DNA from: Adineta ricciae
Lineage: Eukaryota > Rotifera > Eurotatoria > Adinetida > Adinetidae
Length of the DNA: 64,000 bases
Assembly: GCA_905250025.1 (NCBI GenBank)
Contig: CAJNOJ010000007.1
Span: 558,001 to 622,000, forward strand
Direction: 5' to 3'
In this document: positions 1-64,000 of the stretch, one piece after another
How the letters are laid out: every line of letters begins with the position of its first letter
How positions within the stretch are numbered: the stretch's first letter is position 1
Notes under the pieces: generated by a model
What the model was told of the DNA's origin: nothing
Seen by the model: only the letters and a program-made list of their open reading frames with translations
Database searches by the model: none
Made by a program: the position numbers and the translations under genes

Positions 1-960
1 AAAACCTCTTTCATGCGGAGATTGTTGACAAAAAGGCAAAAATAACTGCTGAGACTCTTGTCGAAATGGTTTCGATGCTAAAATATGTGCATAAAACATT
101 GAACATGAATTAAGGTATATAAGAAAACCAACTGCTAAATAGCGAATGAAATCTTCCACGGCCAAGCGATCGGCTGTTTTAGATATATCTGCCGTAATTG
201 TCAGATATATTGTAGTCAATGGAAACCAAATTGTCGAGAGAACATAAAAAACGACTTCGCTAATCAAAACTTTGACTAGTTGAATATCGCGTCGCTTAAT
301 TCTCAGCGCTGAATCTGGATGTGCATTTCGAATACGTGACGCTGGTCGAGTACGAATTTGAGATTGGTGAATATTTTGAATAGCCCAAATCGAAAATATA
401 ATCATAATGATTAATGGTGCTGAAGTGGCAATAGTTGTATAGATACTATAGACGATTTGATACACACCTGCCGTACCACATCGACTAGCGGATTGTATGT
501 TAGCATAAATGATCACATGGATTGGAATGATTATCCATAGAACACAGATGACAAGGATTAGGATCAAAGCTATTCGACGTTGGCATAGATTACGGAGAAA
601 AATATTCTGCGAACATAGAGCAAATCGATCCACGCATGCTAGTGCTACACTTGACCGAGATAACATTAGAAATACATGTATGAGATATGCCTTCATTTTG
701 CAAAATGTAATTGAATACTTGGACGCGTTGTCTGGTAAATACGAATCTATAATCACTGAAGTCATTCCAAATAGAATAGCTAATAAACTGAAAATTGATG
801 TTGCAATAAAATAAATTGAACATGAATTCTTCCGAAATTTCTTCTGACTGAAAACAAGTAGATTTAAGATTGAACCGAGTATTCCTAATGCATAACAGAC
901 AGTTAAAACATAACGTGTGAGTATATTTTGAATGAAACTAAGATCACTGATTAAGGTCAT
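1..960 (-). CDS. Rhodopsin-like 7TM receptor, copy 1 (C-terminus cut by window edge)
   Basis: Class A-type G-protein-coupled receptor of the plasma membrane; ligand unknown, resembling invertebrate peptide receptors. The frame starts at ATG 958-960 and I found no stop codon reading leftward to base 1, giving 320 codons. The intact paralogue at 51002-52021 has 339, so only about 19 C-terminal residues are missing. The two copies align without net indels (constant offset 51061). Seen in the protein: several hydrophobic helices, a Cys at the top of TM3, DRF in place of DRY at the end of TM3, and a Cys in the second extracellular loop. Single exon. It points away from the homeobox gene, 1.1 kb upstream. 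Family assignment is by topology and motifs only. Confidence 0.75.
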   Translation of the reverse strand, partial: MTLISDLSFIQNILTRYVLTVCYALGILGSILNLLVFSQKKFRKNSCSIYFIATSIFSLLAILFGMTSVIIDSYLPDNASKYSITFCKMKAYLIHVFLMLSRSSVALACVDRFALCSQNIFLRNLCQRRIALILILVICVLWIIIPIHVIIYANIQSASRCGTAGVYQIVYSIYTTIATSAPLIIMIIFSIWAIQNIHQSQIRTRPASRIRNAHPDSALRIKRRDIQLVKVLISEVVFYVLSTIWFPLTTIYLTITADISKTADRLAVEDFIRYLAVGFLIYLNSCSMFYAHILASKPFRQESQQLFLPFCQQSPHERGF

Positions 961-2071
961 GGATGTATGCACGAGAGTTTTCTATGAGTTAAGTAAACAA
1001 AGTAGTTGAACTTCATAAAAAATAGAATTCATCGCAGTTTGCTGAGAACTAAGCACTAAATAGTACATTATTCTCATTAGAGCTTCGTGTCGCCTACGAA
1101 TATTTTGGCATGCTTTGTTTTTCCTTAATATTTTTGTATCAACTTAATGGGAGTTAATTGTAAGCGGATTCATTCCTCTGAAATATCCTCTTATTTATCC
1201 GTCGTTTCCGCCAGCAGGAGATAGTTAAGAGTGTTGTGCTTTCAATTACTGACTAATTGCTTTGGAAATAATATGACATACATTTTCCCATTTTAAAACG
1301 CAATTGATATTCGTATTCCTCTCATCTCATCATAACACTTACTGTTTGCTCTTTGAAATGAAGATTTTCTAAATCAACTTGTTTATCTTTTACATCCTAC
1401 TGCAATATTTTCTCTTTTCAATCAGTACAAAAGATAAAACTTGTTAAATATCTCAACAATCGTTGTTAAATGAACATTGGCTTATCGTCACACTGATCAA
1501 TAGTGAGAAAAAAGCGACCCATTTCTACTCTTTATGTGTTAATCAATATCAAAGATTCTGTCGGTATCTACCGTATCACAGTACATAAGCACCAGCTCCC
1601 GATTTCTCCACCTACAATTTTTCCCGTATCTAACTAGAAATATTACTGTCCTATTTGATCTCTTTCGTTCGCTTGAAAACTTCGTCTAATCTCCATTTCA
1701 TTTTGTTTACCGATCAATATCATGTAAGAGAATTTCCATCAACTTGTGATCAGTGGAAACTACCAACTGGCACGTTGTTGTTGTTCCTTTTTCTCCTTTG
1801 ATCATTGTCAATCAACAGATGAGCTTAGGTGTACTAATTAGTCTGTTTTTTCTCGATCTTTTTGATGTCCTTCTGTCGATTATTATTGTGTGTTGAATTA
1901 TGATTGGTGAGGAAAATGAACAGACATTTTTTCGTTCCTATGTATAGTGCTGTTCGTCAACATAATTGTCATCATTCCCTGCGATAAAACATTGTCAATC
2001 ATCTCACGATAACAGGTTAAGTCATCGAATCTCTTTTACAGATAGTCTGTTCTTCTCTGTTATACCTAGGT
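961..2071. other. Intergenic region, GPCR to homeobox gene (copy 1)
   Basis: About 1.1 kb between divergent genes, presumably holding both promoters and the homeobox 5' UTR. No reading frame, tRNA or repeat stands out. It aligns base by base with 52022-53133, with scattered substitutions and 1-2 bp indels, so it belongs to the duplicated block. Confidence 0.6.
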
Positions 2072-2701
2072 ATGGATCCATACTATTCATCACCATCATC
2101 TTGCTACTATCATCCATCATCTTGCGCTTCTTATGAATCATCGCCATCGTTTTTATCAGATCCTTATACTGATCCATACTCATCGTATCCATCAACATCT
2201 ACATCTTATTATTATTCATCATCATATACTGATCAAACAACCTCATCACCCATTGTTTTCTACAATAATTCGGCAACAAATATTCATAATCAGCCGAATT
2301 ATCCAGCTCCGATAGCCAGTACTCCGACGAATATGTCAATTGCTTGCTCCACATCCTCATTAAATACCACATTCGAGTCGGGTATGTTTTCTTTTCTGAG
2401 ATATATGCATAATTTTCTATGATGATCGTGTATGTAGCTCCACCACCAGGTCGTCGCCGTCGTCAACGAACAATTTTCTCAAAGGATCAAGTTGATATTC
2501 TCGATCAAGTCTTTGAAAAAAATCAATATCCTGATTTTCAACTGCGTGAACAACTCTCCGAAAGACTAGATGTTCCTGAAGCTCGAATTCAAGTATGTAG
2601 TAACGAGTGAAAGAAAATTTTAATTCTTTAATTGTTTTCTCTGGTAGGTGTGGTTCAAAAATCGTCGTAGCCGTGCTGGAAGAACAAAATCAAAATACTA
2701 A
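2072..2701 (+). CDS. Paired-like K50 homeobox protein, copy 1
   Basis: Putative DNA-binding transcription factor, 172 aa. Exons by phase matching: 2072-2381, 2438-2592, 2648-2701 (519 nt, closes on TAA). The N-terminal ~100 residues are extremely rich in Ser, Tyr and Pro. The homeodomain follows, beginning near the RRRRQRTIFS motif, with YPDF in the loop/helix 2 region and helix 3 WFKNRRSR. Lysine at homeodomain position 50 (WFKNRR) is typical of the goosecoid/Otx/Pitx paired-like group. The second intron splits helix 3 just before VWF, a classic homeobox intron site. The protein ends about ten residues after the homeodomain. It lies 0.2 kb upstream of the FAM234-like gene on the same strand. 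Exact class (Gsc-like or other) is uncertain. Confidence 0.85.
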
Positions 2702-2912
2702 TGGAAATTCTCTGTCAAGCTTCAGTTCATACACGAAGTTTTCTGTATTTTATTTTAGTATAAATAAAAATTCATTCGAGTATAAAAAGAATCTTTTAAA
2801 CTGTTAGCATATGACGAGGGCAGATTGAGTATGGGAAAGAGATGCAGATGGTTTCTGGTGTAGACGTCATCGGAAGGATAAAACTGCCTTTCGTGCGAAG
2901 ATAACGTTGAAA

Positions 2913-4925
2913 ATGGACGATGAAAATGAAATCTTTATTGGTACTTTTGAACGTGTTCCACCGGTGAAGAAAACACGGTGTGCTGCACGCTGCGTAACAA
3001 TAAGTCTAATCGCTAGCGTGATTATTTGTATCGTGGTTATTGTTCGCACGAGTACAAAGAGCGCAGCGCGTTTGAAAGTCAATGCGTTGTGGTTCCCTTC
3101 AGCTGGAAGTGAGTCTTGTATTCGATTAATGGACATTAATGGCGATGGACTGGATGATGTTATTGTGGGAGTAACTGAGGTCACGGCAATTACAAATGAA
3201 ATTAAAAAAGAACAAAACCGTTCGGCCTTCTGTGAGTCATTGAATGTGGAAGAACCATGCAGTGGCACGATGTATGGCATACGAGGATATGATTTTAGTA
3301 TTCTGTGGTCGTTCCGAATGAAGGAGTCGATCTTCGAACTCGTTTGCGATCTCATCGATTTGAATAACGATGGCCATCGAGATTGTATTGGCGCCGGACG
3401 GCAAGCATCTGTGGTTGCTTTTGATCCTTACCATGGCAAAATAATTTGGGACAGTAGAAATATAAGATCACGACGAGTGCTGTGGAATTTCTATAATCCT
3501 GTTCTTTTACCTGTTGATGTGGATGGCGATGGGATGAATGATATACTTATTTCTCATGGTGGAAATCCGACAATTCCCTCGGAAGTACACGAACGTGAAG
3601 CAGGCTGCTTATTGATTCTCTCCAGTCGAAATGGAAGCCAAATCGGTGAACCATTCTGGATGCCAGATGGTAAGGAGACATATATGTCGCCGATTTTATA
3701 TAACAATGAAACAATACTTTTCGGTACCGGTGGCGAAACGGTACCCGGTGGACTTTACAGCATATCTTTGGATAATCTTCTCAAAGGACATAATCAGTAC
3801 ATAACCGTAGTACAGTCCAAGACAAAGGGTATAATGGTGCCGCCTGTTATTCTTGATATCGATCATGATGCAATTAATGACATTCTTGTTAGTCATTTTG
3901 ATGGGACTCTAGAATTAATCGATGGGAAAACAATGGCACCATTATGGAGTCGAGTATTTGAAGGTTGGGAATTCTATACAACGCCAGCACCAGGTGACTT
4001 CAACAGTGATTCATTCGTCGATTTTATGCTGATCTTAAATCGCGGTAAATGAATGTAGCTTTCGAGAGTGATCTATTGCCGAATTAAGTATTTAGGTGAA
4101 TGGGATCGATATAATTATAGTGAAGTCGTGATTATTGATGGCTTAACAGGTGAAACGATCTGGAAGAAAAGAAATCAATTTGGTGAATTTACTGCTCCGT
4201 TGACATTACAAATGAAAAATAATGGAAAATATCAAGATAGTTTTATCTATCGTCAGCGTGGTCAGAAGAGTGAGGGTGTACCTTCAAATACTTCGTTGAT
4301 ATTATTTCATGGCATTGGTCTACAAGACGGAGAGATATCAAAGTTATCTTAGTTTCACATCATTTTCTTATCGAATTCCTTTTTATTTTGTTTTAGAAAT
4401 GATGGTGCAGCAACGTCGAATCTAACGTCTTCCTGCGATTCTTTCACATTAACTGATTCTGTTGCGCATATATATCTGACCAATATCCATGGCACCCATT
4501 TAATTGGCAGTATCTACCCGCCGATGAATAATCAAAATGAACTATGCAGCGACTTTGAACCGATGGAACGCGCAGGCGGTGCACTGGGAGATCTTGATGG
4601 CGATGGCGTTTTCGATACTGTGGATATCACAACATTTATTACGAAACTGACATCGCATACTTTACATGCTTTTCGTGCTCATTCGGTATTGACGCGTTTT
4701 CCGTTGAATGCAAACCTTATTGAGCCGCAAATCATCGCCAGCTATCAAACAGATATTTCAAGTAGGACTGTCAATGACAAACTTCTCGAATCATTGAGAA
4801 GGAAAACTTCGCTGTCGAAGAAATCAATAGTCTTTGATAAAGATTCATATGTGATACCGAAACAGACGTGGAATGCTTATCTGGGTCGATTCGCCAATAG
4901 TCACTACTATCGAAATATTGAATAA
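2913..4925 (+). CDS. FAM234: FAM234-like FG-GAP single-pass membrane protein, copy 1
   Basis: 635 aa in exons 2913-4044, 4096-4342, 4397-4925. A short cytoplasmic tail containing VPPVKKTRC precedes one hydrophobic segment (residues ~27-46), then a large extracellular part made of FG-GAP/beta-propeller-like repeats with Ca-loop motifs (DINGDGLDD, DLNNDGHRD, DVDGDGMND, DIDHD, DFNSDSFVD, DLDGDGVFD). This layout matches the FAM234A/B (ITFG3) family, whose molecular role is poorly known. Start: the ATG at 2913 is shared by both copies; an in-frame TTG two codons upstream is not used. The second intron has an unusual donor (GTTATC), also seen in copy 2. By eye, exon 1 shows 23 substitutions in 377 residues against copy 2. 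Confidence 0.85.
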
Positions 4926-5075
4926 AAAACAAACAAACAAACATAGAACCATCTGTTGTATAGCAGATAAGCAACAGATGACTTTGTTTATTGTGTAGAA
5001 ATATAAAGAGGACATTATGAGTGAATATGAAATGAGGAGGTGAAAGAGAAAGTTGTATTTAGCGGTTTCAGTTTT

Positions 5076-6785
5076 TCAATAAATGATCGTAAGTGTTGGT
5101 GAACTTGTGTGAACGATTGTTCCACTAAAGTTGGTGATGACTTGAGTTGTCAGAGAATAATCGTACGAAGCGTAAACACCGTTTTTCAGAATTTGAACTT
5201 GTCCATTCGACATATTTGCTGGCTGCATATAAATTGAGGTATTCGTCAAGCTGCCTAATTGACTTGTTATTTGTATATTTCTCTGATTCATGCATGAAGT
5301 ATCGCAACTTGTCGCAAAATTGATCATAAAATCACTAATCATTTGAATCGTACTATTAGAATACCTAAAAGTAAATCAAATTCATTATCAATACTTTTCA
5401 TCTTAATAGTTTCCTTTTCTTCTTTCATTACCAAAATTGCAAAATGACATTACTGATGGTAATATTAAATGCATTCGAACCATTAGGAAATTGTGCTTGG
5501 CGTTCAATCTGATCAAATAAAATGATAATAGACAACAAGTCGTATGTCATGGAAGAGGATTTTTCCTTTGGCATCTTACTATTTGTGTCAGTGCAGGATA
5601 CATAGTAGAAGCTGCGACGAGTGGAACAGGCCCATCGTTTTGACTCGCCGAAGTTTGTGTGCTTGTCGCATCTAACGTTGCAATGTAGTTGCTTTTACTG
5701 GTAGAAACAATCATCGTACAACTCTTGGCAGAGAAAACTAAGAGAAAAAAAACGAGAAGGATCGATTGAATGGTCAAAGATGGACATATTTCTACTGACT
5801 ACTACTCAATTTTGATGAATTACTGTTTTGTATTATGTTAATTTGACTGCCGGAAGGCATATTTGAGATAATTTCTATCGGAAATGTTAGAAAAAAAAAC
5901 GGTCGTTTTTGAAATCAAACAGTATGCTGTCATACTGGTAACGACAACGATGTTTTCAATGGAAATATACGGAGTGTAAACTGTAATTGCGCTCGAAACA
6001 GTATAAGACAGGTTCGAATTTTGTATCAAAAAATAGATTGGTGATGACAGTTGTTTATATGAGCACAATTGATTGAAAATAATCAGTTGTCGACGTTGAT
6101 CACAGGTTAAACATTCATGTGTATACATAATGACAAAGTCTAATGTAACACTACAGACAAAGCTCCTAGAAATTGAATTGAAAGTTTCCCTTGATCTCAT
6201 CAGTACCTCATGTTACTGGAATCATCTGTATCGGCAGACATTTGCAATATAGAGATGTTCGACTGATCTTGATAATTGTTTATTAGCAATTGTTGTTCAA
6301 GCTAGAAGAATAGCGATGTATTCTGAAAGACAACGAAATATTGCGCTCACTGCGTATTGAATTGACGCGTTCATAACCATTTGTGCATCAGCAAGGGTCG
6401 ATGTATTTGTCAAGAGTGTCAATCGTGCAAGATCTCGTTTTTGCAAAACTTGATTCATATGCAAAGTGTAATTACTTATTCTCACCGCTGAAACAAAAAA
6501 AACAGCGCATCGAGATGTTGTTTTTGCATTAGAAAAACCTTCGGTGTTATACTCGTAAGAATAAAACTTGTTTTGTCAACTGATTGATTACTTAAGTATA
6601 ACGGGATGATCGACAAGACAATCATCGATGCCAACAGGAAGGAAAAAGTAAGAAATCCGACCATTGTTAACGATGGCAGAATCATTTGTAAATAGGATTT
6701 TCTCAAAAAGAATCACATGTCAATATCAATGAATATTTTCCTATTTAACTTACGTTGTTTGCAATGTTTCTCTAGTGAACAACAT
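5076..6785 (-). CDS. Orphan type II membrane protein, 9 exons, copy 1
   Basis: I do not recognise this protein. On the minus strand nine exons join in phase: 6785-6754, 6701-6553, 6487-6351, 6301-6207, 6165-5936, 5874-5806, 5737-5580, 5508-5432, 5364-5076 (1236 nt, 411 aa). The exon 6 donor could be any of three GTs a few bases apart. One strong hydrophobic stretch lies at about residues 17-40, after a short N-terminus (MLFTRETLQTTKSY), so a signal-anchor topology is likely. The remaining ~370 residues are Ser/Thr/Asn-rich with many N-x-S/T sequons and scattered Cys, as expected for an extracellular ectodomain. The last exon ends ...SPTLTIIY with no second membrane segment. It is convergent with the FAM234-like gene, about 150 bp away. 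Confidence 0.7.
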
Positions 6786-7079
6786 GATGCAGCAATTGCG
6801 TCGTTCGAAAATGAAAACTTTGAGATTCTTCGCGCATGAAATTCGTCAATTTATATCGCTATCTTTTTCGTAAAGCATCCGATAACATTACGTGCCTTTT
6901 GGGACTTTTAAAAATTTTGATTTTTTTAAATGATATTCACTATTGAGAACATCTAGATGACAGATGATAAGTACTTTCATTAAGTTTGCTTTTAAAATTC
7001 TTAATGGGAGTATCATACTACTTCAAAGAAGAAAAAAACAAAAGATGAGAGTGCAAATGTTCGTTTAGTTGTAAACTTG
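6786..7079. other. Short divergent intergenic region (copy 1)
   Basis: About 290 bp separate the divergent orphan membrane-protein gene (-) and the 366-aa gene (+), so it probably contains both promoters. AT-rich, with no clear motif. Copy 2 has the equivalent at 57834-58127. Confidence 0.5.
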
Positions 7080-8103
7080 ATGGAACGTCAAGCATCTATT
7101 GACAGGAAACGCAAGCTGGTACCATCAAACTCCTTCCCAAATCAAATTCTTCAATCGGTTGTTAATTACGATTCAAAACTTGATTTCACCTGCGTGCCCA
7201 TTGCCATTGACGAAAAATTTTACGAGTCATCCATACGTCGGCAAACATATGGGTTAATCTGGAATTCCGTTCGATCGGCTGAATGCATTTGTTGAGATTC
7301 TTCAAATATCACCGGAATGGTCACGATATGACATCGACCTCCTTATTTACAAGAATCGAAATCAGAAATTGCTGAACGTTCTCGCTCTACGTGATGAATT
7401 TGTTCGTGTTTTACGCCGATTTTTTCAACAAGATCCCAGTCAAATGAACGATTCGTATGTCTTGAAGTATCTGGAGTTTACTCGTCGCGCAATTCAGTTA
7501 ACAATTCACCATCGACAAGATAGAGAATTGCCACTGATCATTACATTTTTGCTCCTCATCGAATTGAATATCCCTTGGACAACCTTCTCTTTCCTAATGA
7601 ATATTTCCAATCTCATGCTGATATCAAATCGACATATCTAAGTCCGTCAAATTCTATTAAATTTCAATTCGATTCGAGTATTATCGAAGCGAAGCTATAC
7701 GATTATCTGATCGACACCTCCGAATCATTCTCATCGATATTCACAAGTCTTTTTGAGCTACGAAATCAATCTCTAAATTATGTCCAACGAGTGGAGAGAT
7801 ATATTTCCAGAATAGGAGACGAACCAACAACGTCAGATCAGCTCAATTCAATCCATTAATATCAACCAAGATCGAAGGTGTCTTATCATCATTATTTTGC
7901 ACATCATCCTTACAGACATTATTTCTAATGCTTTACAAATCTTAATCGATGCTCTAGAAAACAATTATCTCGAACACCCCTTACTGAAAACAAAAAACAT
8001 ATTTTCGGAAATGTTTTCGCTCTGCGATGTAAGTCTTCAATATGGAATCAAAAAACTACTTGTGGATATGCAAATCAATTTGAAAAGACGTATGCATCGA
8101 TAA
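7080..8103 (+). pseudogene. Decayed copy of the 366-aa orphan gene
   Basis: This aligns along its whole length with the intact single-exon gene at 58128-59228 but carries four frame-changing indels. (1) A 32-bp deletion after 7276, at a CGATC microhomology present twice in copy 2. (2) A 2-bp insertion in the CTCT run near 7587. (3) A 5-bp insertion near 7845-7852. (4) A 52-bp deletion near 7925-7930, at a short TAAT-like homology. The net difference of 77 bp equals the length difference of the two loci (1024 against 1101 bp). The first frame runs into a stop near 7295. Substitution density elsewhere looks like that of neighbouring genes, so decay is probably recent. Sequencing error could explain the 2-bp event but not the two large deletions. 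Confidence 0.85.
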
Positions 8104-8862
8104 CCTCAATCCATCAAAACGTATTTTGATGTTTATGACTTTGTGTTTTTTATTATGATTTACTTAATAGAAAAATACAGTGTTGTCGTGTTTTTCTTGA
8201 TTTTATGAGAATTTATTCCCTGACAATCTAGTTAGTAAATAGAACTATATTTGCTTAGGGAGACCGGTTGCTCGTGTGTAATTGTACCAGAATAAAACAC
8301 CGTATAAAAATAAAAAGACGGCCTTGAATGATCGACTGTGCCATTTCGAAGAAGAAGAGAGAAAGAGAAAAGAAAAGATCGCAAGATACTTATTGTAGAT
8401 TCTCGTGTTTTGCTTGTCAACAACAAATTGATTAGTAATCAGACTTAAATCTTCACTTGAAGTTCTTTTTTTCTTTTTACTCTGTCAAATAATTTTACGT
8501 CCACACACCTCCGCGCTGTTTCTTCCTGTTGGTATTTTTTGTAAAAAATAAGTCGACGGTTTGGTTGACGACGTCATCAACATCATCATTTGCTAGCTTT
8601 CTCTCACTCTCGTTTCTTTTTTGTCGCTCTTTCTTCATCTTTTTCCTTGTCATCCACCTTTTTTTATGAATAACGAAACGACAACAACGGCATCCATCCT
8701 AACAACGACACTAGGCTGAAAAGCATACAGAAAGTTAACGCTAAAACGCACGCCAAATCATCATCAACGTGCGAGCAGAAACATTCATTTGATTATATTG
8801 ACGACAACACAAAACAAGCATACGTTTCGCTTCTAAACGTATGTAGTCAAACACTATACAAG
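8104..8862 (+). promoter_or_regulatory. Probable promoter and 5' UTR exon of the polyQ membrane-protein gene (copy 1)
   Basis: The region is T-rich, then turns CAA/CGA-rich from about 8680. It ends in a consensus splice donor (AAG|GTAAGT) at 8862/8863, which I infer is the 3' end of a non-coding first exon. A matching acceptor (ATAG) lies at 10624, just before the coding start. The same donor and acceptor exist in copy 2 (59991/59992 and 61743). The transcription start cannot be placed from sequence alone. Confidence 0.45.
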
Positions 8863-10624
8863 GTAAGTCTAATAGTTATTTCATCAGGCTCTTGACATGA
8901 AAACAACAGCTCGATGGTTTCATGCGAGGAAAACTTTGTAGTTCATCTTGCTCGATTGTTAAGATGTTTTTATGACCTTGTCGCAACGTATTAGATATGT
9001 GTTAGGATATGTGTATCAACTGTCGAAGAGAAATCAATTTTTCGTCTTTATTATTTGTTAAACCTTGACTTTATTATGGAACTGTGTATTCTTTTCTTTC
9101 TTTTTTTCTATTCGCATCCGATTATTGTTGTGAAATAATCATTCCTCGAGTTGCTACGTGCTATTCGCAAAAAATAATCGTTTGTTGGATGCCAGACGGC
9201 GCACTTTCTCGTTTTTTAAATATAACATGCAGCTTGCGATCAGTAGAAACGGGAAAAAGCTGCGCGTAAAATAAAAGAGAAACAAAATACAGAGCGAGAT
9301 TAGCTAATAAAACAAATGGCACAATAAAACGCTCGAATCATCGAGTCATGCAATAATCAGAAGTCAAACTTTGCAGAGATGAATCATCGAAATCAGAGTT
9401 ATTCGGAATGAATATTTCAACAAATCTTTCAGCCTTCATTTGTCGTCATAATAAATTTCGAAATGTACACAGACATCGAGTAAATCTGAAAATAAACAGA
9501 AGCAATTTAAAGAAAAAGAAATAGAATTGACATTCTCCAACACACGCATGCAGCTTACTTAAATATGTTAAAGTGAATGTATATTATTTTTCTTTTCAAC
9601 AAAGACTAACAGGTTATTATGCTATCGGCTAGGTCTTTTCTCCATCTCTGAAATGACAGCGTATCGTTGTCACAGTTGATTCGAGACAGATGAAAATCAT
9701 AGTTTACGATTAATCGTGAAAGACGTAACGATGACAAAAGATAACGAGATAACAAGTGAGTTGTTTAATCTCGAAGAGAAAACCGAGCGTTAAAAATCAC
9801 AACTTTTCATTCTATTCTCTGATTTCTTTTTTCTTTTTGTCTGTCGTAAGCCAACCTGTCAATATACGTTTTCGCTTCGTTTCTTTTCGTCGCACATCTA
9901 AACATCATACTTACTTCTTCTCTTTCACTTTCGTTTTGCTTATTGTATACACACAGGAGGAAAGGCCACCCCATACATACATCGACAAGTTTTTAACACA
10001 TACATACACACATCTATATATGTGCATACACAGTTTGAGCTTATTTGATATATGTTGACACAATTTTTGGTCGCGTCGGCTACTATTAAATATATATATG
10101 TGTACGTGTATGCGTTGATCTTGAACTATACAACGACGATATGTATTGATGACAAAGAGAAAGAAGATGAGTATTATATTAGTTGAAGAGAGTACTTAGC
10201 TATTGTTAACTCAATCAATGAACACAATTATGTTGTTCTATATATGGCATTGTATTTTTGGTGACGTCAGATCAACACAAAAACATATGAGTGTGAGTTA
10301 GTAGATTATCCTTGATTATATTATTATTATTATAAGGTCTTTCTTTTTAATGGCGTTTGAATAGATACCTAATGACGAGACAGATTTTTCTTATGGGAAA
10401 GTTTAATCATTAATCAAGGCTAAATGTGTGACAGTAACAAAAAGAAAACCTACCGAATTTAGTGAAGTGTAAATAATGCATTATAAAAAAAGTGAAGATA
10501 TCACGAGTAATTGAATGAGGTGTATTGAACATATGTTATGAAGGTGATAACAGAATATAATTTGCTGTGACTCCCTCTCTTTGTCTGAATATGTATCATT
10601 TATCTTCTTTTCTTTCATTTATAG
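8863..10624 (+). other. Long 5' UTR intron (inferred), copy 1
   Basis: About 1.76 kb between the inferred donor at 8863 and acceptor at 10624, far longer than the ~50-bp introns typical here. It contains only short simple-sequence patches (CATA/ATAC runs near 9990-10120) and no convincing frame. Copy 2 preserves it at nearly full length with scattered differences. Long first introns often carry regulatory elements, but none is identifiable here. Confidence 0.4.
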
Positions 10625-10656
10625 GTGTGCTATCCGCTCTTCCTTAGCGGTCTCCA

Positions 10657-11344
10657 ATGACCGAGAGTTATTTAACTACAGATATTATTGTTATCATCGT
10701 TTTGGTCGTCGTCTTAAGTATGTGACATATTTCATCTATGATAAAAATGCCTCGTTTGTTTAGTTTTGGTCGGTATATGCGCCTTTTTTACACATTTCTA
10801 TTGGACGAAAATCGGTGTTTCGGAAATATGGAATACAGCAAAATGGAGTTCAATGCGAAGTTCAATCTATCAGACAGTGCGTCGTTTCAGTCGCGCTAGC
10901 AGTGGCAAGTACGGCTCCGAACGTCCATTCTCTGCTGCATCCGTATATTCGGAAGAATCAGATGGTAGTGCATTACCAGCTCCGCTAAGAAATAAAAAAC
11001 CACAAGCAGCAGCTCCTCATTCTACTATACCCATTCCTCCACAACAGCAGCAGCAACAGTCGTCATCGCTGCCGCCACCGCCTCACTCTGCTTCTTCTTC
11101 TTCTTCTACTAATAATGCTTACTCAGCGACTGCACCGCGAAATCAATCATCCGACAGTTATGGACGTCGAAATTCACGCAATCAAGTACAACCGGTTTCT
11201 ACAGTTTCATATAATAATTCTGGAAGACAGAACTATGGCATTAAAATAGGACAAGCTCCTCAGAATACCAAAATTCGAAATGTTCATGAGTACGATGAGA
11301 GAAATCCAGATGGTTCTGTTACTATTGATGTACAACGGTTTTAA
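10657..11344 (+). CDS. Small single-pass membrane protein with polyQ/Ser-rich tail, copy 1
   Basis: 213 aa in two exons, 10657-10717 and 10764-11344 (642 nt). The short exon adds MTESYLTTD, then a run of Ile/Val/Leu that continues across the splice into GICAFFTHFYW, a single membrane helix at about residues 9-34. The rest is probably cytoplasmic: basic and Ser-rich (RRFSRASSGKYG), then proline-rich, then six glutamines, PPPP, a serine run and a conserved-looking C-terminus (IRNVHEYDERNPDGS). I cannot name the family. The reading without the first exon would start at a TTG and lose most of the helix. Copy 2 has ten glutamines at the same place. Confidence 0.7.
11041..11058 (+). repeat. CAA/CAG run (polyQ) in copy 1 membrane-protein gene
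   Basis: Six glutamine codons; the matching tract in copy 2 (62157-62186) has ten, all in frame. Confidence 0.85.
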
Positions 11345-17247: not shown

Positions 17248-17580
17248 GTTCGAAGAATCGATTTCATTCAAATTGTTCTTCAAAGAGAAAAGTAGTGCAT
17301 TTCATACCAGTTGTATTGTGCAACAGACATCGTAATTGTTCCAACTAAGCGCATCGGTGAGTATGTTAAGGTTAAAAATCTTCTCTCATTTTCACTGTTA
17401 CCACTGATGATGTTGATGACTCATCCCATCAGTATAGCTTTATTTCTTTCTCCTTTTCTCAAAACATACACTTTGCGCTCGTGTTGTGAAATAAAAAACT
17501 ACAAGGTTATGTCGAATTTTTTCACTACTTATATCGTTAGTCTTCGTTTTACATGATGAAACCTTAGGAGACAGACTGTA

Positions 17581-21125: not shown

Positions 21126-21156
<31 letters not shown>

Positions 21157-32347: not shown

Positions 32348-32378
<31 letters not shown>

Positions 32379-42397: not shown

Positions 42398-42449
42398 TAA
42401 ATTCATACATAGAATAGATACGTTCATTGTTCGAAACTGAAGAATAGTG

Positions 42450-53133: not shown

Positions 53134-53754
53134 ATGGATCCATACTATTCATCACCATCATCTTGCTACTATCATCCATCATCATGCGCTTCTTATGAAT
53201 CATCACCATCGTTTTTATCAGATCCTTATACTGATCCATACTCATCGTATCCATCAACATGTACATATTATTATTCATCATATACTGATCAAACACCGGC
53301 ATCACCCATTGTTTTCTACAATAACTCGACAACAAATATTCATAATCAGCCGAATTATCCAACACCCATCGCGAGTACTCCGACGAATACAGCAGTTGCT
53401 TGCTCTACAGCCTCATTAAATACCACATTTGAGTCGGGTATGTTTTTTTTTCTGAGATATATATATTATTTTCGATGATCATGTACGTAGCTCCACCAGC
53501 AGGTCGTCGTCGTCGTCAACGAACAATTTTCTCAAAGGATCAAGTGGATATTCTCGATCAAGTCTTTGAAAAAAATCAATATCCTGATTTTCAACTCCGT
53601 GAACAACTCTCCGAAAGACTAGATGTCCCTGAAGCTCGAATTCAAGTACGTAGTAGTGAATAAAAGAAAATATTAATCCTTGAATTGTTTTCTCCGGCAG
53701 GTATGGTTCAAAAATCGTCGTAGCCGTGCTGGTAGAACAAAATCAAAATATTAG
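53134..53754 (+). CDS. Paired-like K50 homeobox protein, copy 2
   Basis: 170 aa in exons 53134-53437, 53491-53645, 53701-53754 (513 nt). Structure is identical to copy 1: Tyr/Ser/Pro-rich N-terminus, K50 homeodomain (RRRRQRTIFS ... WFKNRRSR), intron before VWF, and an almost immediate stop after it (TAG here, TAA in copy 1). Differences concentrate in the N-terminal low-complexity half, which is two codons shorter. From RRRR to the stop I find no amino-acid difference, which argues for purifying selection on the DNA-binding part of both copies. Confidence 0.85.
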
Positions 53755-53966
53755 TGCAAATATTTTTGTCAAGCTTCAGTTCATACACGAAGTTTTCTGT
53801 ATTTTATTTTAGTATAAATAAAAATTTATTCGAGGAGAAGAAGAATCTTTAAAACTGTTAGCATATGATGAGGGCAGATTGAGTATGGGAAAGAGATGCA
53901 GATGGTTTCTAGTGTAGACGTCATCGCAAGGATAAAACTGCCTTTCGTATGACGAAATTATTGAAA

Positions 53967-55979
53967 ATGGACGATGAAAATGAAATCTTTATTGGTACTT
54001 TTGAACGTGTTCCACCGGTGAAGAAAACACGATGTGCTGCATGGTGTGTAACAATAAGTCTAATCACCAGTGTAATCATTTGTATCGTCGTAAGTGTTCG
54101 CACGAGTACAAAGAGTACAACGGATTTGAAAGTCAATGCATTATGGTTCCCTTTAGCTGGAAGTGAGTCGTGTATTCGATTAATGGACATTAATGGCGAT
54201 GGACTGGATGATGTTATTGTGGGAGTAACTGAAGTCACGGCAATTACGAATGAAATTAAAAAAGAACAAAACCGTTCGGCATTCTGTCAGTTATTGGAGG
54301 TGGAAGAACCATGTAGTGGAACGATGTATGGCATACGAGGATATGATTTCAGTGTTCTGTGGTCTTTCCGCATGAAGGAGTCGATCTTCGAACTCGTTTG
54401 CGATCTCATCGATTTGAATAACGACGGCCATCGAGATTGTATTGGTACTGGACGGCAAGCATCTGTGATTGCTTTTGATCCTTACCATGGGAAAGTAATT
54501 TGGGATAGTAGAAATATAAGATCACGGCGAGTGCTGTGGAATTTCTATAATCCTATTCTTTTACCTGTTGATGTTGATCGCGATGGCATGAATGATATAC
54601 TTATTTCTCATGGTGGAAATCCAACAATTCCCTCGGAAGTACACGAACGCGAAGCAGGCTGCTTATTGATTCTCTCCAGTCGAAATGGAAACCAAATCGG
54701 TGAACCATTCTGGATGCCAGATGGCAAGGAAACATATATGTCACCGATTTTATATAACAATGAAACAATACTTTTCGGTACCGGTGGCGAAACGGTACCC
54801 GGTGGACTTTACAGCATATCATTGGATAATCTTCTCAAAGGTCATGAACAGTATATAACCGTAGTACAGTCCAAGACAAAAGGTATAATGGTGCCACCTG
54901 TTATTCTTGATATCGATCATGATGAAATCGATGACATTCTTGTTAGCCATTTTGATGGAACTCTAGAATTAATCAATGGGAAAACAATGGCAGTATTATG
55001 GAGCCGAGTATTCGAAGGTTGGGAATTCTATACAACGCCAGCACCGGGTGACTTCAACAGTGATTCGTTCGTGGATTTTATGCTGATCTTAAACCAGGGT
55101 AAAGGAAAATAACTTTCGAGTGATTTATTACCTAACTAAGTATTTAGGTGAATGGGATCGATACAATTGTAGTGAAGTAGTGATTATTGATGGCTTAACA
55201 GGTGAAACGATCTGGAAGAAGAGAAATCGATTTGGTGAATTTACTGCTCCGTTGACATTACAAATGAAAAATAATGGAAAATATCAAGACAGTTTTATCT
55301 ATCGTCAGCGCGGTCAGAAAACTGAGGGTGTACCTTCAAATACTTCGTTGATATTGTTTCATGGCATTGGTCTGCAAGACGGAGAGATATCAAAGTTATC
55401 TTAGTTTCAAATCACTTTCTTAACGCATTCCTTGTCTTGTTTTGTTTTAGAGATGATGGTGCGGCAACGTCGAATCCAGCGGTTTCCTGCGATTCTTTCA
55501 CATTAACTGATTCTGTTGCGCATATATATCTGACCAATATTCATGGTACCAATTTAATCGGCAGTATCTACCCGCCGATGAATAATCAAAATGAACTATG
55601 CAGCGACTTTGAACCGATGGAACGCGCAGGTGGTGCACTAGGAGATCTTGATGGCGATGGCGTTTTCGATACTGTGGATATCACAACATTTATTACGAAA
55701 CTGACATCGCATACTCTGCATGCTTTTCGTGCTCATTCGGTATTGACGCGTTTCCCGTTGAATGCAAACCTTGTTGAACCGCAAATCATCGCCAGCTATC
55801 AAACAGATATTTCAAGTAGAACCGTCAATGACAAACTTCTTGAGTCATTGAGAAGGAAAACTTCGTTCTCAAAGAAATCGATTATCTTCGGTAAAGACTC
55901 ATATGTGATACCAAAACAGACGTGGAATGCTTATCTGGGTCGATTTGCCAATAGTCACTACTATCGAAATATTGAATAA
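53967..55979 (+). CDS. FAM234: FAM234-like FG-GAP membrane protein, copy 2
   Basis: 635 aa in exons 53967-55098, 55148-55394, 55451-55979, with exon lengths identical to copy 1. An in-frame ATG six codons upstream (53949) exists only in this copy. I chose 53967 because copy 1 must start there. One Ca-loop differs: DVDGDGMND in copy 1 is DVDRDGMND here, replacing a glycine of the DxDGDG loop. Most other changes are conservative. The GTTATC second donor is kept. Confidence 0.84.
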
Positions 55980-56125
55980 AAAACAAACAAACATAGAACC
56001 ATCTGTTGTGTAGCAGATAAGCAACAGATGAATTTGTTTATTGTGCAGACATATAAAGAGGACATTATGAGTGAATATGAAATGATAATGTGAAAGAGAA
56101 AGTTGTATTTAGCGGTTTCGGTTTT

Positions 56126-57833
56126 TCAATAAATGGTCGTAAGTGTGGGTGAACTTGTGTGAACGATTGTCCCACTAAAGTTGGTGATGACTTGAATTGT
56201 CAGAGAATAATCGTATGAAGCGTAAACACCGTTTTTCAGAATTTGAACTTGTCCATTCGACGTATTCGCTGGCTGCATATAAATTGAAGTATTCGTCAAG
56301 TTGCCTAATTGACTTGCTATTTGTATATTTCTCTGATTCATGCATGAAGTATCGCAACTTGTCGCAAAATTGATCATAAAATCACTAATCATTTGAATCG
56401 TACTATTAGAATACCTAAAAGTAAGTCAAATTCATTATCAATACTTTCCATCTTAATAGTTTCCTTTTCTTCTTTCATTACCAAAATTGCAAAATGACAT
56501 TACTGATAGTGATATTAAATGCATTCGAACCATTAGGAAATTGTGCTTGGCGTTCAATCTGATCAAACAGAATGATAATAGACAACAAGTCGTATATCAT
56601 AGAAGAGGATTTTTCTTTGGCATCTTACTATTTGTGCCAGTGCAGGATACATAGTAGAAGCTGCGACGAGTGGAACAGGTCCATCGTTTTGACTCGCTGA
56701 AGTTTGTGTGCTTGTCGCATCTAACGTTGCAATGTAGTTGCTTTTACTGGTAGAAACAATCATCGTACAATTCTTGACAGAGAAAACTAAGAAAAAACCG
56801 AGAAGGGTCGATTGAATGGTCAAAGATGAACATATTTCTACTGACTACTACTCAATTTTGATGAATTATTGCTTTGCGTTATGTTAATTTGGCTGCCGGA
56901 AGGTGTATTTGAGATAATTTCTATCGGAAATATTAGGGAAAAGATCGTGTTTTGAAATCAAATAGTATGCTGTCATACTAGTAACGACAACAATTTTGTC
57001 GATGGAAATATACGGAGTGTAAACTATAATTGCGTTCGAGACAGTATAAGACAGGTTTGAATTTTGTATCAAAAAATAGATTGGTGATGACAGTTGTTTA
57101 TATGAGCACAATTGATTGAAAATAATCCGTTGTCGACGTTGATCACAGGTTAAACATTCATGTGCATACATAATGACAAAGTCTAATGTAACACTAAGGA
57201 CAAAACTCCTGGATATCGAACTGAAAGTTTCCCTCGATCTCATCAATACCTCATGTTACTTGAATCATCCGTATCGGCAGACATTTGCAATATAGAAATG
57301 TTCGACTTATCTTGATAATTGTTTATTAGCAATTGTTGTTCAAGCTAGATGAATAGTGAGGCATTCTGAAAGACAACGAAATGTCGCACTCACTGCGTAT
57401 TGAATTGACACGTTCATAATCATTTGTGCATCAGCAAGGGTCGATGAATTTGTCAAGAGTGTCAATCGTGCAAGATCTCGCTTTTGCAAAACTTGATTCA
57501 TATGCAAAGTGTAATTATTTATTCTCACCGCTGAAACAAAAAGAAAACAACGGATCGAGGTGTTATTGTTTTTTCATTAGAAAAACCTTCGATGTCATAC
57601 TCGTAAGAATAAAACTTGTTTTGTCAACTGATTGATTACTCAAGTATAACGGGATGACCGACAAGACAATCATTGTGGCCAACAGGAAGGAAAAAGTAAG
57701 AAATCCGATCATTGTTAACGATGGCAGAATCATTTGTAAATAGGATTTTCTCAAAAAGAATCACGTAGCAATATCAATGATTATTTTCCTATCTAACTTA
57801 CGTTGTTTGCAATGTTTCTCTGGTGAACAACAT
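56126..57833 (-). CDS. Orphan type II membrane protein, copy 2
   Basis: Homologue of the nine-exon gene at 5076-6785. The ATG is at 57833-57831 and the last exon ends at 56126. The splice sites I checked are at equivalent places (for example, the exon 2 donor is GTATGA where copy 1 has GTATAA). Long exon frames correspond (56884-57246, 56563-56823, 56126-56392). Signal-anchor helix and N-glycosylation sequons are retained. I did not re-close every phase by hand here, so the exon list of copy 1 should be used as the template. Function unknown. Confidence 0.68.
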
Positions 57834-58127
57834 GATGCAGCAATTGCGTCGTTCGAAAATGAAAACTTTGAGACTCTTTATGCATGAAATTCGTCAATTT
57901 ATATCACTATCTTTTTCGTAAAGCATCCGATAATATTATGTCCCTTTTGGGACTTTTAGAAATTTTGATATTTTTAAATGATATTCACTATTGAGAACAT
58001 CTAGATAACACTTGATAAGTACTTTCATTGAGTTTGCTTTTAAAATTCTTAATGGGAGTATCATATTACTTCAAAGAAGAAAACAACAAAAGACGAGAGT
58101 GCAAATGCTCGTTTAGTTGTAAACTCG

Positions 58128-59228
58128 ATGGAACGTCAAGCATCTATTGACCGAAAACGCAGACTAGTACCATCAAACTCCTTCCCAAATCAAATTCTTC
58201 AATTGGTTGTTAATTACGATCCAAAACTTGATTTCACCTGCGTGCCAATCGCCATTGACGAAGAATTTTACGAGTCATCCATACGTCAGCAAACATATGG
58301 GTTAATCTGGAACTCCGTTCGATCATCGAATACAAGTAGATTGATCTCGTACGATCGGCTGAATGCATTTGTCGAGATTCTTCAAATACCATCGGAATGG
58401 TCACGATACGACATCGACCTCCTTATTCACAAGAATAGAAATCACAAATTGTTAAACGGTCTCGCTCTACGTGATGAATTTGTTCGTGTTTTACACCGAG
58501 TTTTTCAACAAGATCCCAGTCAAATGAACGATTCGTATGTCTTGAAGCATCTGGAGTTCACTCGTCGCGCAATTCAATTAACATTTCATCATCGACAAGA
58601 TACGGAATTGCCGCTGATCATTACATTTTTGCTCCTCATCGAATTGAATATCCCTTGGACAACCTTCTTTCCTAATGAATATTTCCAATCCCATGCTGAT
58701 ATCAAATCGACATATCTAAGTCCGTCAAATTCTATTAAATTTCAATTCGATTCGAGTGTTATCGAAGCGAACCTATGCCATTATCTGATCGACACTTCTG
58801 AATCATTCTCATCGATATTCAAAAGTCTTATCGAGCTACGAAAACAATCTCTAAATTATATCCAACGAGCGGTGAGATATGTTTCCAAAACAAGAGACGA
58901 ACAAACATCATCAGACCAAATCAATCCATCAATATCAGCCAAGATCGAAGGTGTCTTATCATCATTATTTTGCACATCATCCTTACAGACATTATTCCTA
59001 ATACTTTGTTCGAATTATTCACAAATTGAATCGATTTCATCGCCCATCGTTAATGCTTTACAAATCTTAATCAATGCTCTAGAAAACAATTATCTCGAAC
59101 ACCCCTTACTGAAAACAAAAAACATATTTTCGGAAATGTTTTCGCTCTGCGATGTAAGTCTTCAATATGGAATCAAAAAACTACTTGTGGATATGCAAAT
59201 CAATTCGAAAAGAGGTATGCGTCGATAA
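58128..59228 (+). CDS. Orphan 366-aa protein, intact copy
   Basis: Single uninterrupted exon. No signal peptide, membrane helix or known motif is evident. The sequence looks globular and mainly helical (ISYDRLNAFVEILQIPSEW, ALRDEFVRVLHRVFQQDP, TFLLLIELNIPW, NALQILINALENNYL), basic at the N-terminus (RQASIDRKRR). I do not recognise the family, so it may be lineage-specific. The copy at 7080-8103 is a pseudogene, so this is the only functional version in the window. It is divergent from the orphan membrane-protein gene, about 290 bp away. Confidence 0.7.
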   Translation: MERQASIDRKRRLVPSNSFPNQILQLVVNYDPKLDFTCVPIAIDEEFYESSIRQQTYGLIWNSVRSSNTSRLISYDRLNAFVEILQIPSEWSRYDIDLLIHKNRNHKLLNGLALRDEFVRVLHRVFQQDPSQMNDSYVLKHLEFTRRAIQLTFHHRQDTELPLIITFLLLIELNIPWTTFFPNEYFQSHADIKSTYLSPSNSIKFQFDSSVIEANLCHYLIDTSESFSSIFKSLIELRKQSLNYIQRAVRYVSKTRDEQTSSDQINPSISAKIEGVLSSLFCTSSLQTLFLILCSNYSQIESISSPIVNALQILINALENNYLEHPLLKTKNIFSEMFSLCDVSLQYGIKKLLVDMQINSKRGMRR

Positions 59229-61743
59229 CCTCAATCCATCAAAACGTATTTTGATGTTTATGACTTTGTGTTTTTTATTATGATTTACTTAATAGAAAAA
59301 TGCAGTGTTGTCGTGTTTTTCTTGATTTTATGAGAATTTATTCTCTGACAATCTAGTTAGTAAATAGAACTATATTTGCTTAGGAAGACTGGTTGCTCGT
59401 GTGTAATTATACCAGAATAAAACACCGTATAAAAATAAAACGACGACCTTGAATGATCGACTGTGCCATTTCGAAGAAGAAAAGAGAAAGAGAGAAGAAA
59501 AGATCGCAAGATACTTATTGTAGATTCTCTTGTTTTGCTTGTCAACAACAAATTGATCAGCAGTGAGACTTAAATCTTCACTTGAAGTTTTTTTTTCTTC
59601 TTACTTTGTCAAATAATTTTACGTCCACACACCTCCGCACTGTTTCTTCCTGTTGGTATTTTTTGTAAAAAATAAGTCGACGGTTTGGTTGACGACGTCA
59701 TCAACATCATCATTTGCTAGCTTTCTCTCATTCTCGTTTCTTTCTGTCGCTCTTTCTTCATCTTTTCCCTTGTCATCCACCTTTTTTTATGAATAACGAA
59801 ACGACAACAACGACATCCATCCTAACAACGACACTAGGCTGAAAAGCATACAGAAAGTTAACGCTAAAACGCACGGCAAATCATCATCATCATCATCGTG
59901 CAAGCAGAAACATTCATTTGATTACATTGACGACAACACAAAACAAGCATACGTTTCGCTTCTAAACGTATGTAGTCAAACACTATACAAGGTAAGTCTA
60001 ATAGTTATTTCATCAGACTCTTGACATGAAAACAGCAACTCGATGATTTCATACGAGGAAAACTTTGTAGTTCATCGTGTTCGATTGTTAAGATGTTTTC
60101 ATGACCTTGTCGCAATGTATTAGGATGTGTGTATCAACTGTCGATGAGAAATCAATTTTTCGTCTTTATGATTTGTTAAACCTTGACTTTATTATGGAAC
60201 TGTGTATTCTTTTCTTTCTTCTTGTTCTATTCGCATCCGATTATTGTTGTGAAATAATCATTCCTCGAGTTGCTACGTGCTATTCGCAAAAAATAATCGT
60301 TTGTTGGATGCCAGACGGCGCACTTTCTCGTTTTTTAAATATAACATACAGCTTGTGATCGGCACAAACGGGAAAAAGCGACGCGTCAAATAAAAGAGAA
60401 ACAAAATACAGAGCGAGATTAACTAATAAAACAAATGGCACAATAAAACGCTTGAATCATCGAGTCATGCAATAATCAGAAGTCAAACTTTGCAGAGATG
60501 AATCATCGAAATCGGAGTTATTCAAAATGAATATTTCAACAAATCTTTCAGCCTTCATTTGTCGTCATAATAAATTTCGAAATGTACACAGACATCGAGT
60601 AAATCTGAAAATAAACAGAAGCAATTTAAAGAAAAGAAAAAGAAATAGAATTGACATTCTCCAACACACGCATGCAACTTACTTAAATATGTTAAAGTGA
60701 ATGTATATTATTTTTCTTTTAAACAAAGACTAACAGGTTATTATGCTATCGGCTAGGTCTTTTCTTCATCTCTGAAATGACAATGTGTCGTTGTCACAGT
60801 TGATTCGAGACAGATGAAATCATAGTTTACGATCAATCATGAAAGACGTAACGATGACAAAAGATAACGAGATAACAAGTGAGTTGTTTAATCTCGAAGA
60901 GAAAACCAAGCGTTAAAAATCACAACTTTTCATTCTATTCTCTGTTTTCTTTTTTTTTGTCTGTCGTAAGCCAACCTGTCAATATACTTTTTCGCTTCGT
61001 TTCTTTTCGTCGCACATCTAAACATCATACTTACTTCTTCTCTTTCACTTTCGTTTTGCTTATTGTATACACATAGGAGAAAAGGCCACCCCATACATAC
61101 ATCGACAAGTTTTTAACACATACATACACACATCTATATATATGCATACACAGTTTGAGCTTATTTGATATATATTGACACAATTTTTGGTCGCGTCGGC
61201 TACTGTTAAATATATATATGTGTGTGTGTGTATATGCGTTGATCTTGAACTATACAACGACGATATATATTGATGACAAAGAAAAAGAAGATGAGTATTA
61301 TATTAGTTGAAGAGACTACTTAGCTATTGTTAACTCAATCAATGAACACAATTATGTTCTTCTATATGTGGCATTGTATTTTTGGTGACGTCAGATCAAC
61401 ACAAAAACATATGAGTGTGAGTTAGTAGATTATCCTTGATTATATTATTATAAGGCCTTTCTTTTTAATGACGTTTGAATAGATACCTAATGACGAGACA
61501 GATTTTCCTTACGAGAAATTTTAATGATCAATCAAGGCTAAATGTACGACAGTAACAAAAAAGAAAACCTACCGAATTTAGTGAAGTGTAAATAATGCAT
61601 TATAAAAAAAATGAAGATATCACGAGTAATTGAATGAGGTGTATTGAACATATGTCATGAAGGTGATCACAGAATATAATTTGCTGTGACTCTCTCTCTC
61701 TGCTTAAATATGTATAATTTATCTTCTTTTCTTTCATTTATAG
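59229..61743 (+). promoter_or_regulatory. 5' region and long UTR intron of the polyQ membrane-protein gene, copy 2
   Basis: Colinear with 8104-10624. The inferred non-coding exon ends at 59991 (AAG|GTAAGT) and the intron runs to the TAG at 61743. It includes a CATA/TGTG microsatellite patch near 61210-61235 that is longer than in copy 1, and a CATCAT run near 59882-59898 that is expanded relative to copy 1. No gene in the interval. Confidence 0.4.
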
Positions 61744-61775
61744 GTGTGTTATCCGCTCTTCCTTAGCGGTCTCCA

Positions 61776-62469
61776 ATGACCGAGAGTTATTTAACTACAG
61801 ATATTATTGTTATCATCGTTTTGGTCGTCGTCTTAAGTATGTGAAGTATTTCATCTATGATAAAAATGACTCGTTTGTTTAGTTTTGGTGGGTATATGCG
61901 CCTTTTTTATACATTTCTATTGGACGAAAATCGGTGTTTCGGAAATATGGAATACAGCAAAATGGAGTTCAATGCGAAGTTCAATCTATCAGACAGTACG
62001 TCGTTTCAGTCGCGCTAGCAGTGGCAAGTACGGCTCCGAACGTCCATTCTCTGCTGCATCCGTATATTCGGAAGAATCTGATGGAAGTGCGTTACCAGCT
62101 CCGCTTAGAAATAAAAAATCACAAGCAGCTCCTCATTCTACTATACCTATTCCTCCACAACAACAGCAGCAGCAGCAGCAGCAACAGTCGTCATCGCTGC
62201 CGCCACCGCCTCACTCTGCTTCTTCTTCTTCTTCTAATAATGCTTACTCGTCGACTGCACCGCGAAATCAATCATCCGACAGTAATGGACGTCGAAATTC
62301 ACGCAATCAAGTACAACCGGTTTCTACAGTTTCGTATAATAATTCTGGAAGACAGAACTATGGAATTAAAATAGGACAAGCTCCTCAGAATACCAAAATT
62401 CGAAATGTTCATGAGTACGATGAAAGAAATCCAGACGGTTCTGTTATTATTGATGTACAACGGTTTTAA
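61776..62469 (+). CDS. Small single-pass membrane protein with polyQ/Ser-rich tail, copy 2
   Basis: 215 aa in exons 61776-61836 and 61883-62469 (648 nt). Same N-terminal membrane helix and tail as copy 1. The glutamine tract is ten residues against six, and neighbouring Ala and Ser runs differ by one or two residues, as expected for repeat slippage. Outside these tracts the two proteins are nearly the same. Family not recognised. Confidence 0.7.
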
Positions 62470-62959
62470 ATGAATGTCTGCCTTCATTTAATCATCCCGA
62501 GCTTTCCCTTTCGAAAACAAATCATCTTTTGCTCTGTTTTGTCTCAATAATTTGGTGATATACGACTTCACCCTGGTGATAAAATCTTTCTTCTTCTCTA
62601 TTTTTTGTCTTTTGTACTCATATATAAATATTCATTCAATCGATGACTTATCATTTCTTTCTTATTTTAACTTGTTCGTTTTATTCATTCATTCATTCAT
62701 TCTTTCTTTCTCTACCCTCTACTTCATGCTTTTTTTATTTTTCTTATTGTTATGGATGATGACGACGATGGCTCGACTATTTTTTTTTGCCTGTCTTTAA
62801 TGTGAATATGCATGCGCAAGTGCGCATTCGTCTTTCGGTGATATCTGTTGTGGCTTTTAAATGCGTTGGCATGAAAAATATACATAAAAAGCTCAAGCGA
62901 AACATAACTGAGAAAACTTTTATTATACAACTAAACAAAATGACAAAGTCAAATCACAG
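62470..62959. other. Convergent 3' region (copy 2)
   Basis: Equivalent to 11345-11825, with the ATTC run and T-rich tracts. The small frames on both strands are not supported as genes. Confidence 0.5.
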
Positions 62960-64000
62960 CTACTGATGAGATGGATGATTCGAGAGAGATGTGGTTGTTT
63001 GCTCATTTTCCATACGTTCACTGATGTCCATTGACGCGTTTTCACAACCTAAACCTTGCCGATAGTTTTGATAATCGATTTGTACAGGAGCAGTAGTGCC
63101 ATTTTGGTTGACACCAAGACTATTACCAGGAGTCCAGTCGATTTTCTCTAATAACTGATGACCCATATTAGTCTCATCGATTGGAGCAATGATCTCATCT
63201 ATTAACGAACAAAATTATGTTGAGAAAAATGAAATTAATGTCGTAACGCACTGGTTTTATATGTATAATGGTCATTTTTGACTCGTTTATGGTTGTAACT
63301 ATTATGGTGTGAGCGACGAGTTTCTTTTAATAAGCGAATATGCCGTTTTTGATGAGGATGAGTACAGGCATTCTAAAAAAAGATTAATATAAATGTTAAC
63401 GTAGATAGCGTCCCTTTCGATCAATTCATAGCCTTGAACTATAAGTATAAGATGACAACGAGCGAATGAAAAAACGACTTCATGACGTGTACGAATGCAT
63501 AATGTATTTTTTCACCTTGTTAGTTCATTTGCGTACGCACAAGTCATTTTTATTTTCAATATGAAAATATCGATCATACCGAGATCACAAATGTTAAATC
63601 CATAGAAGCGTCTGACAGTCTTAGGTCATCCGTTCATAGAAGGAGACTCTCACTATAATATATTCTTGAACTACATCTAGACGGTTGATTAGAATTCGAT
63701 TCAAGGGCTTCGTTCGAAGAAATATTCATTGCACATTCATCTTACTTTCGATCCAAGATTTCTTCGATTGCCTGTTAACATTTCTCTATTAACAAATGTT
63801 TTGATTCGATTTTGAACTGTTGTTTTGGAATTTGTTAGCATCATACTGAGTGCACCGTTCACTATTTTTTGTAAGGTACTGTCGGTCGTCGTTAACATTT
63901 TCTCATCAGTATCGTCATCATCTTGATCGGATTTGTTATCATTGTTATCTTCCCACCATGATATCATACGCGGTACGCTACTTTCATCTCGTGGCCAATC
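62960..64000 (-). CDS. GPATCH2: GPATCH2-like G-patch protein, copy 2 (5' part beyond window)
   Basis: The visible part comprises exon 5 (63198-62960), exon 4 (63372-63252) and part of exon 3 (64000-63746), at the same lengths and phases as copy 1. The G-patch reads MGHQLLEKIDWTPGNSLG (IGHQ in copy 1). The exon 4 end encodes YKT where copy 1 has YKN. Exons 1-2 and the start of exon 3 lie past the right edge, so the duplicated block continues beyond the window. Same inferred RNA-processing role as copy 1. Confidence 0.8.

Follow-up and report, generated by a model that had tools for sequence, protein, structure and literature searches.

When the same genes stand twice on one contig of a bdelloid rotifer, at a divergence like that of alleles, is this a chromosome with linked alleles, a tandem duplication, or two haplotypes that the assembly has placed one after the other? 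The question is raised by a window of 64,000 nucleotides, C7:558001-622000 (positions with the prefix C7 are contig coordinates; unless another contig is named, all others count from the first letter of this window). Flot et al. (2013) are said to have described allelic blocks lying colinear on a single scaffold of Adineta vaga. Same-scaffold allelic blocks have served as an argument against ordinary meiosis in bdelloids, and the relevant part of PMC5916493 records homologous blocks of this kind for A. vaga in 2013, of which 23 of 25 are palindromes and two tandem on re-analysis, and two tandem cases in A. ricciae. The repeat described here is very probably a false tandem duplication, in which two haplotypes of one locus would have been joined end to end by the assembly.

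Aligned with itself, the window has positions 1-12867 colinear with 51062-64000 on the same strand (E-values of 0), at an ungapped identity of 94.4% (12092/12804 columns). This bears out the colinear, same-orientation repeat of the window start and end that had been reported in a first-pass annotation of the stretch. An offset drifting from 51,061 to 51,139 had also been given; at eight sampled positions we obtained values between 51043 and 51133. The repeat had further been taken to consist of arms of about 13 kb, the outer limits of which are the ends of the window itself. When the stretch was extended by 100 kb on each side (C7:458001-722000, 264 kb) and again aligned with itself, one unit of 51 kb was found twice, head to tail, at C7:554619-605696 and C7:605698-657088. 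In the window, the two copies and the arms annotated earlier lie as follows.

1..47696, + strand: copy A (putative haplotype 1), starting at C7:554619, 3382 bases before the window; from self-alignment and global alignment.
47698..64000, + strand: copy B (putative haplotype 2), continuing to C7:657088, 35088 bases past the window; from self-alignment and global alignment.
1..12867, + strand: first repeat arm of the first-pass annotation, a section of copy A only, clipped by the window start.
51062..64000, + strand: second repeat arm of the first-pass annotation, a section of copy B only, clipped by the window end.

Copy A measures 51078 bp and copy B 51391 bp, and the middle of the window extends across their junction, from the last part of A into the first part of B. 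That the part between 13 and 51 kb is single-copy DNA, as had been supposed, is ruled out by the flanked self-alignment: this part is duplicated as well, the partner sequence lying partly at 47698-51061 and partly beyond the window ends. Global alignment of A with B gave 48253 identical and 2509 different columns, or 95.06% ungapped identity, with 164 gap events. By kilobase, identity ranges from 91.5 to 97.9%, the last window, of 78 bp, being identical, and the edges stand a little above the mean, with 97.1% in the first kilobase and 97.2 and 96.4% in the last two full ones. The largest length difference between the copies is a 245-bp insertion present in B only (C7:647980-648224), which could be a small mobile element.

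At the point where A gives way to B, the assembly has a gap, and the following features meet there.

47697 (C7:605697): single N, an assembly join; the only N of the window, exactly at the A/B junction.
47476..47696, + strand: 221-bp end of A, shared without mismatch with the end of B (C7:656868-657088).
47698..47818, + strand: 121-bp start of B, shared without mismatch with the start of A (C7:554619-554739).
47633..47696, - strand: 3' stub of a probable SMP/C2-domain gene (PF17047, PF00168), truncated at the N; its position in A follows from the 221-bp identity.

Seven runs of N occur in the 264 kb, six of a single base and one of ten bases, and if gaps are assumed to be uniformly placed, the crude chance that some gap falls exactly on the junction is about 7/264000. 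A true tandem would be expected to show continuous sequence across the junction, which here is the gap, and the scaffold join is the only link between A and B seen in the assembly. Only three identical runs in the A-B alignment reach 221 (402, 238 and the terminal 221), a random column starting a run of at least 221 with a frequency of 0.0039. An exact 221-bp match between the left and right sides of the N was also found at three of the five other single-N joins (C7:464732, 690713 and 691998). Because this length recurs at other joins, the end of A is apparently an overlap made by the assembler with the sequence after B, and the 221-bp matches would themselves be assembler overlaps. Some scaffolders record a negative gap as a single n, and the join was presumably made by a scaffolder with a negative gap estimate; a literature search for single-N negative gaps yielded no useful description. 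SPAdes with a final k-mer of 121 was used for maximum-haplotig assemblies, of which the present assembly is not known to be one (PMC7943196, in part). The coding sequence at the junction is cut as well. Full SMP/C2 coding stretches, which we infer to form one gene, are located at the edge between B and the right flank (C7:657025-657885 and 657898-659256); the C2-domain stretch spans this edge and adjoins a stretch with SMP and C2 domains, and A has the 3' stub only.

Divergence between A and B amounts to 4.9% (2509/50762 columns), like that between two further contigs, C19 and C77, which carry more diverged matches to the locus, and close to the allelic heterozygosity of 5.5% given for A. ricciae (PMC7953838, in part). 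As a proxy for exons we used 20 open reading frames (ORFs) in A, read from stop to stop and at least 150 codons long, shorter ones that overlapped a longer one by more than 30% having been dropped. Substitutions occupy 731 of the 15020 long-ORF columns (4.87%), against 4.97% outside, and in these raw terms the earlier statement that introns and intergenic DNA are as similar as exons stands. The accompanying claim of divergence free of selection does not, being ruled out by the counts at the three codon positions, which over the 20 ORFs are 165, 126 and 440 (3.29, 2.52 and 8.79%). Selection is visible in the A-B divergence. A few of the ORFs show no codon bias, two of these with 2 gap columns; they are probably spurious and were kept in the count. 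Given the codon-position bias, A and B both look like functional alleles.

C19 and C77 match A, B or the left flank at 78-90% identity in BLAST pieces of at least 40 bp, and at 67-86% in genome searches. Compared with each other, they are 92.3% identical over 3.17 kb and 94.9% over 3.09 kb; at 92-95%, the pair behaves as alleles, and by this behaviour C19 and C77 would be a second allele-like pair. The pattern of degenerate tetraploidy is therefore present at the locus, with one allele-like pair (A/B, 95%) and one more diverged pair (C19/C77). Matches to the left flank, the block and the right flank follow one another at 619.6-621.6k, 629-664k and 665.2-666.9k of C19, and at 37-38.8k, 46-82k and 83.4-85.1k of C77. 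On both contigs the matches form a single series in one and the same order, also with probes placed further out, as judged from scattered matches and not from a full alignment. The start of C77 corresponds to about 583 kb in C19, so that C19 from 583k to its end stands against C77 from position 1 (compared up to C19:685k). C19 and C77 are probably the overlapping ends of two ohnologous haplotypes that were left unjoined, which is the geometry of A and B without the join.

Copy number was assessed in the 130.46 Mb of the assembly, in 1033 contigs, from which short contigs may be missing, and statements of absence are limited to these contigs. Long probes proved unreliable, a 9.7-kb probe having missed copy B and a 10-kb probe not having listed the window's own place. 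Absence is therefore claimed from six 4-kb probes only, each of which recovered its own position; with the two block probes, the second copy was recovered as well. A third copy, for which the first-pass annotation had suggested looking, did not appear at allelic identity: with both 4-kb block probes (2/2), only A and B matched at 92% or above. At distances of 13 bp to 53 kb from the edges, none of the four 4-kb flank probes had a match other than itself at allelic identity over more than 45 bases, and 6-kb flank probes, left out of the counts, agree with them. Besides C19 and C77, diverged matches were seen on C97 (68%) and C76 (89% over 44 bp), and short flank matches on C232, C194 and C91 (87-88% over 43-45 bp); like the gene-family matches described below, these do not reach allelic identity along any stretch longer than 45 bases. 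Many short low-complexity matches were listed for the 10-kb probe. Dozens of contigs carry 86-97% matches to a segment of 35-51 bases at about 21106-21170 of the window (probe 14000-24000); as this segment overlaps a TGTTGC/TTGCTGCTG tandem repeat (21118-21157), it is probably of low complexity.

A search with a spliced-leader pattern, which we take to be that of bdelloids, retrieved 44 matches with one or two mismatches and no exact one, the reversed control giving none, and a bdelloid origin of the sequence is supported by these matches. All 44 matches listed start with T, where the leader used has G. Divergently oriented pairs are frequent among them, with a spacing of about 150 bp (on C79 about 370, on C146 470), on contigs including C6, C8, C77, C79 and C99. 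The GC content of the 264 kb is 36.3%; published values are 35.6% for A. ricciae and 30.8-32.6% for three other bdelloids (PMC5916493, in part).

The N at the junction, the 221-bp end overlap, the single order on C19 and C77 and the lack of a third allelic copy in the block probes all favour an assembly join, as do the allele-like divergence and the SMP/C2 stub in A, which is complete only across the edge between B and the right flank. Of the two possibilities named in the first-pass annotation, a bdelloid same-scaffold allelic block and a join of two haplotypes, these results strongly favour the latter. Adjacent haplotype copies with a gap between them are also a published class of assembly error (PMC9516828 and PMC2864568, in part). 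A runs up to the N on the right and B begins at it, the suffix-prefix arrangement of duplicated overlapping contigs, and the pair is separated by a gap on one scaffold, as in false heterotype duplication. Under an assembly join, each of two homologous chromosomes would carry one 51 kb stretch, about 5% apart, A and B presumably belonging to different homologues. The assembler may have ended the left contig in haplotype A and started the right contig with haplotype B. These ends would properly have been overlapped or kept as alternatives; a scaffolding step may instead have set the contigs end to end with a one-base gap between them. The locus is most likely best closed as an artefact, with no evidence of an unusual chromosome.

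Several observations weigh against a join. The 221-bp overlap is missing at two of the five other single-N joins (C7:500110 and 712669) and at the ten-N run, and the identical runs of 402 and 238 bp inside the A-B alignment reach 221 as well. At the left edge the overlap is 121 bp, not 221, and with runs of at least 121 bp starting at 0.022 of the columns, this edge taken alone is not striking. The flanks lack an allelic partner in all four probes, which requires that they are homozygous, or that their second haplotype was removed or lies outside the contigs searched. Finally, a join is read here from the assembled letters, whereas the published criteria of half read depth, discordant pairs or linked reads, and heterozygous one-copy k-mers are read-based (PMC9516828, in part). 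The state of the flanks bears on a special form of the same artefact, and not a competitor to it, in which a heterozygous island of 51 kb lies between flanks that gene conversion or mitotic exchange has rendered homozygous, with an assembly graph running left -> {A,B} -> right. It would explain why the flanks are without partner (4/4 probes) when the ohnologous region is represented by two diverged contigs, and it agrees with the exact ends shared by A and B and with edge kilobases slightly above the 95.06% mean. However, the flanks may have lost their second haplotype to redundancy removal, or it may lie in contigs outside those searched; inside the block, identity in several kilobases equals that at the edges (up to 97.9%), and the left end overlap is again 121 bp and not 221. 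We consider such an island possible but doubtful.

If instead the pair were real, it could be a tandem segmental duplication, A and B being paralogues on one chromosome, of sufficient age to have diverged by 5%, with both homologues carrying the pair and collapsed in the assembly. As assembled, the letters do give a clean head-to-tail pair, the long ORFs of both copies show a codon-position bias as under purifying selection, and neither 4-kb block probe found another contig with the block at allelic identity. Nevertheless, the N at the exact junction would have to be a coincidence and the allele-like divergence a matter of chance, the 221-bp identical end has the overlap length of other joins, and both C19 and C77 carry their matches in a single order; we regard a true tandem as very improbable. 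The same points apply to an ameiotic architecture, in which one chromosome would carry both alleles of the locus, the case made for A. vaga from its 2013 assembly, and haploid sets would be impossible. The first-pass annotation had pointed to such a bdelloid block; a bdelloid origin is supported and an allele-like pair lies on one contig, and the same-scaffold blocks reported for A. vaga and A. ricciae likewise speak for it. The ameiotic interpretation itself, however, finds no independent support here, and Nowell et al. caution that scaffold gaps lie within many of the collinearity breaks in bdelloid assemblies, some of which may be scaffolding errors (PMC5916493, in part), the join at this locus being a gap. 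An ameiotic architecture is exceedingly improbable, and it is highly improbable that the 51 kb pair is real in the sense of alleles 5% apart standing head to tail between single flanks on a chromosome not divisible into haploid sets.

Apart from the junction, domain matches identified the following coding features in the window.

2829..4052, + strand, in A: FAM234-type beta-propeller ORF; counterpart in B at 53913-55112.
39088..41072, + strand, in A: two ORFs with the N- and C-terminal domains of FGGY carbohydrate kinases.
51002..52042, - strand, in B: 7tm_1 receptor-like ORF; the counterpart in A spans the window start.

A Glucose/Sorbosone dehydrogenase-like ORF stretch at about 42520-43540 has relatives at 65-75% on C70, C201, C534, C272 and C23 and, among the matches listed, none on C19 or C77; it looks like a member of a dispersed gene family. 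RNA genes, tRNAs and tandem arrays were considered as a cause of the repeat and rejected: in the window there is neither an Rfam match at the gathering score nor a tRNA predicted by ARAGORN, and there are three short tandem rows. Elsewhere in the extended stretch, a possible local gene duplication lies at C7:711231-717010, where two segments around the single N at 712669 recur at a distance of about 3.1-3.5 kb with 81-83% identity, and at C7:680315-684701 diverged units stand in a tandem-like arrangement, spaced by about 285, 570 and 860 bp and 76-86% identical.

Read as an assembly join, the locus would show at base level how a same-scaffold allelic block can arise, and it suggests a cheap check for others that uses sequence only: a one-base gap at the junction, an exact end overlap that has the length found at other joins, and the arrangement on ohnologous contigs. 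Among known systems, false heterotype duplication, a term of the Vertebrate Genomes Project (PMC9516828, in part), shares with it divergent haplotypes that are adjacent on one scaffold and separated by a gap; the present case differs in concerning a degenerate-tetraploid bdelloid and in being judged from the assembly itself. In the duplicated overlapping contigs of Kelley and Salzberg 2010 (PMC2864568, in part), the end of the left contig likewise aligns to the start of the right one, with flanks on opposite sides; those were confirmed by mate pairs, and the overlap here is 51 kb at 95%. Like the A. vaga blocks of 2013 (PMC5916493, in part), A and B are allele-like blocks on one bdelloid scaffold; unlike them, they are direct repeats whose junction coincides exactly with a gap, and their linkage is without independent support. 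The A. ricciae blocks ARIC00305 and ARIC00659 of Nowell et al. 2018 (PMC5916493, in part) are also tandem homologous blocks on one scaffold and probably of the same species, although they probably come from another assembly (174.5 Mb, compared with 130.5 Mb here).

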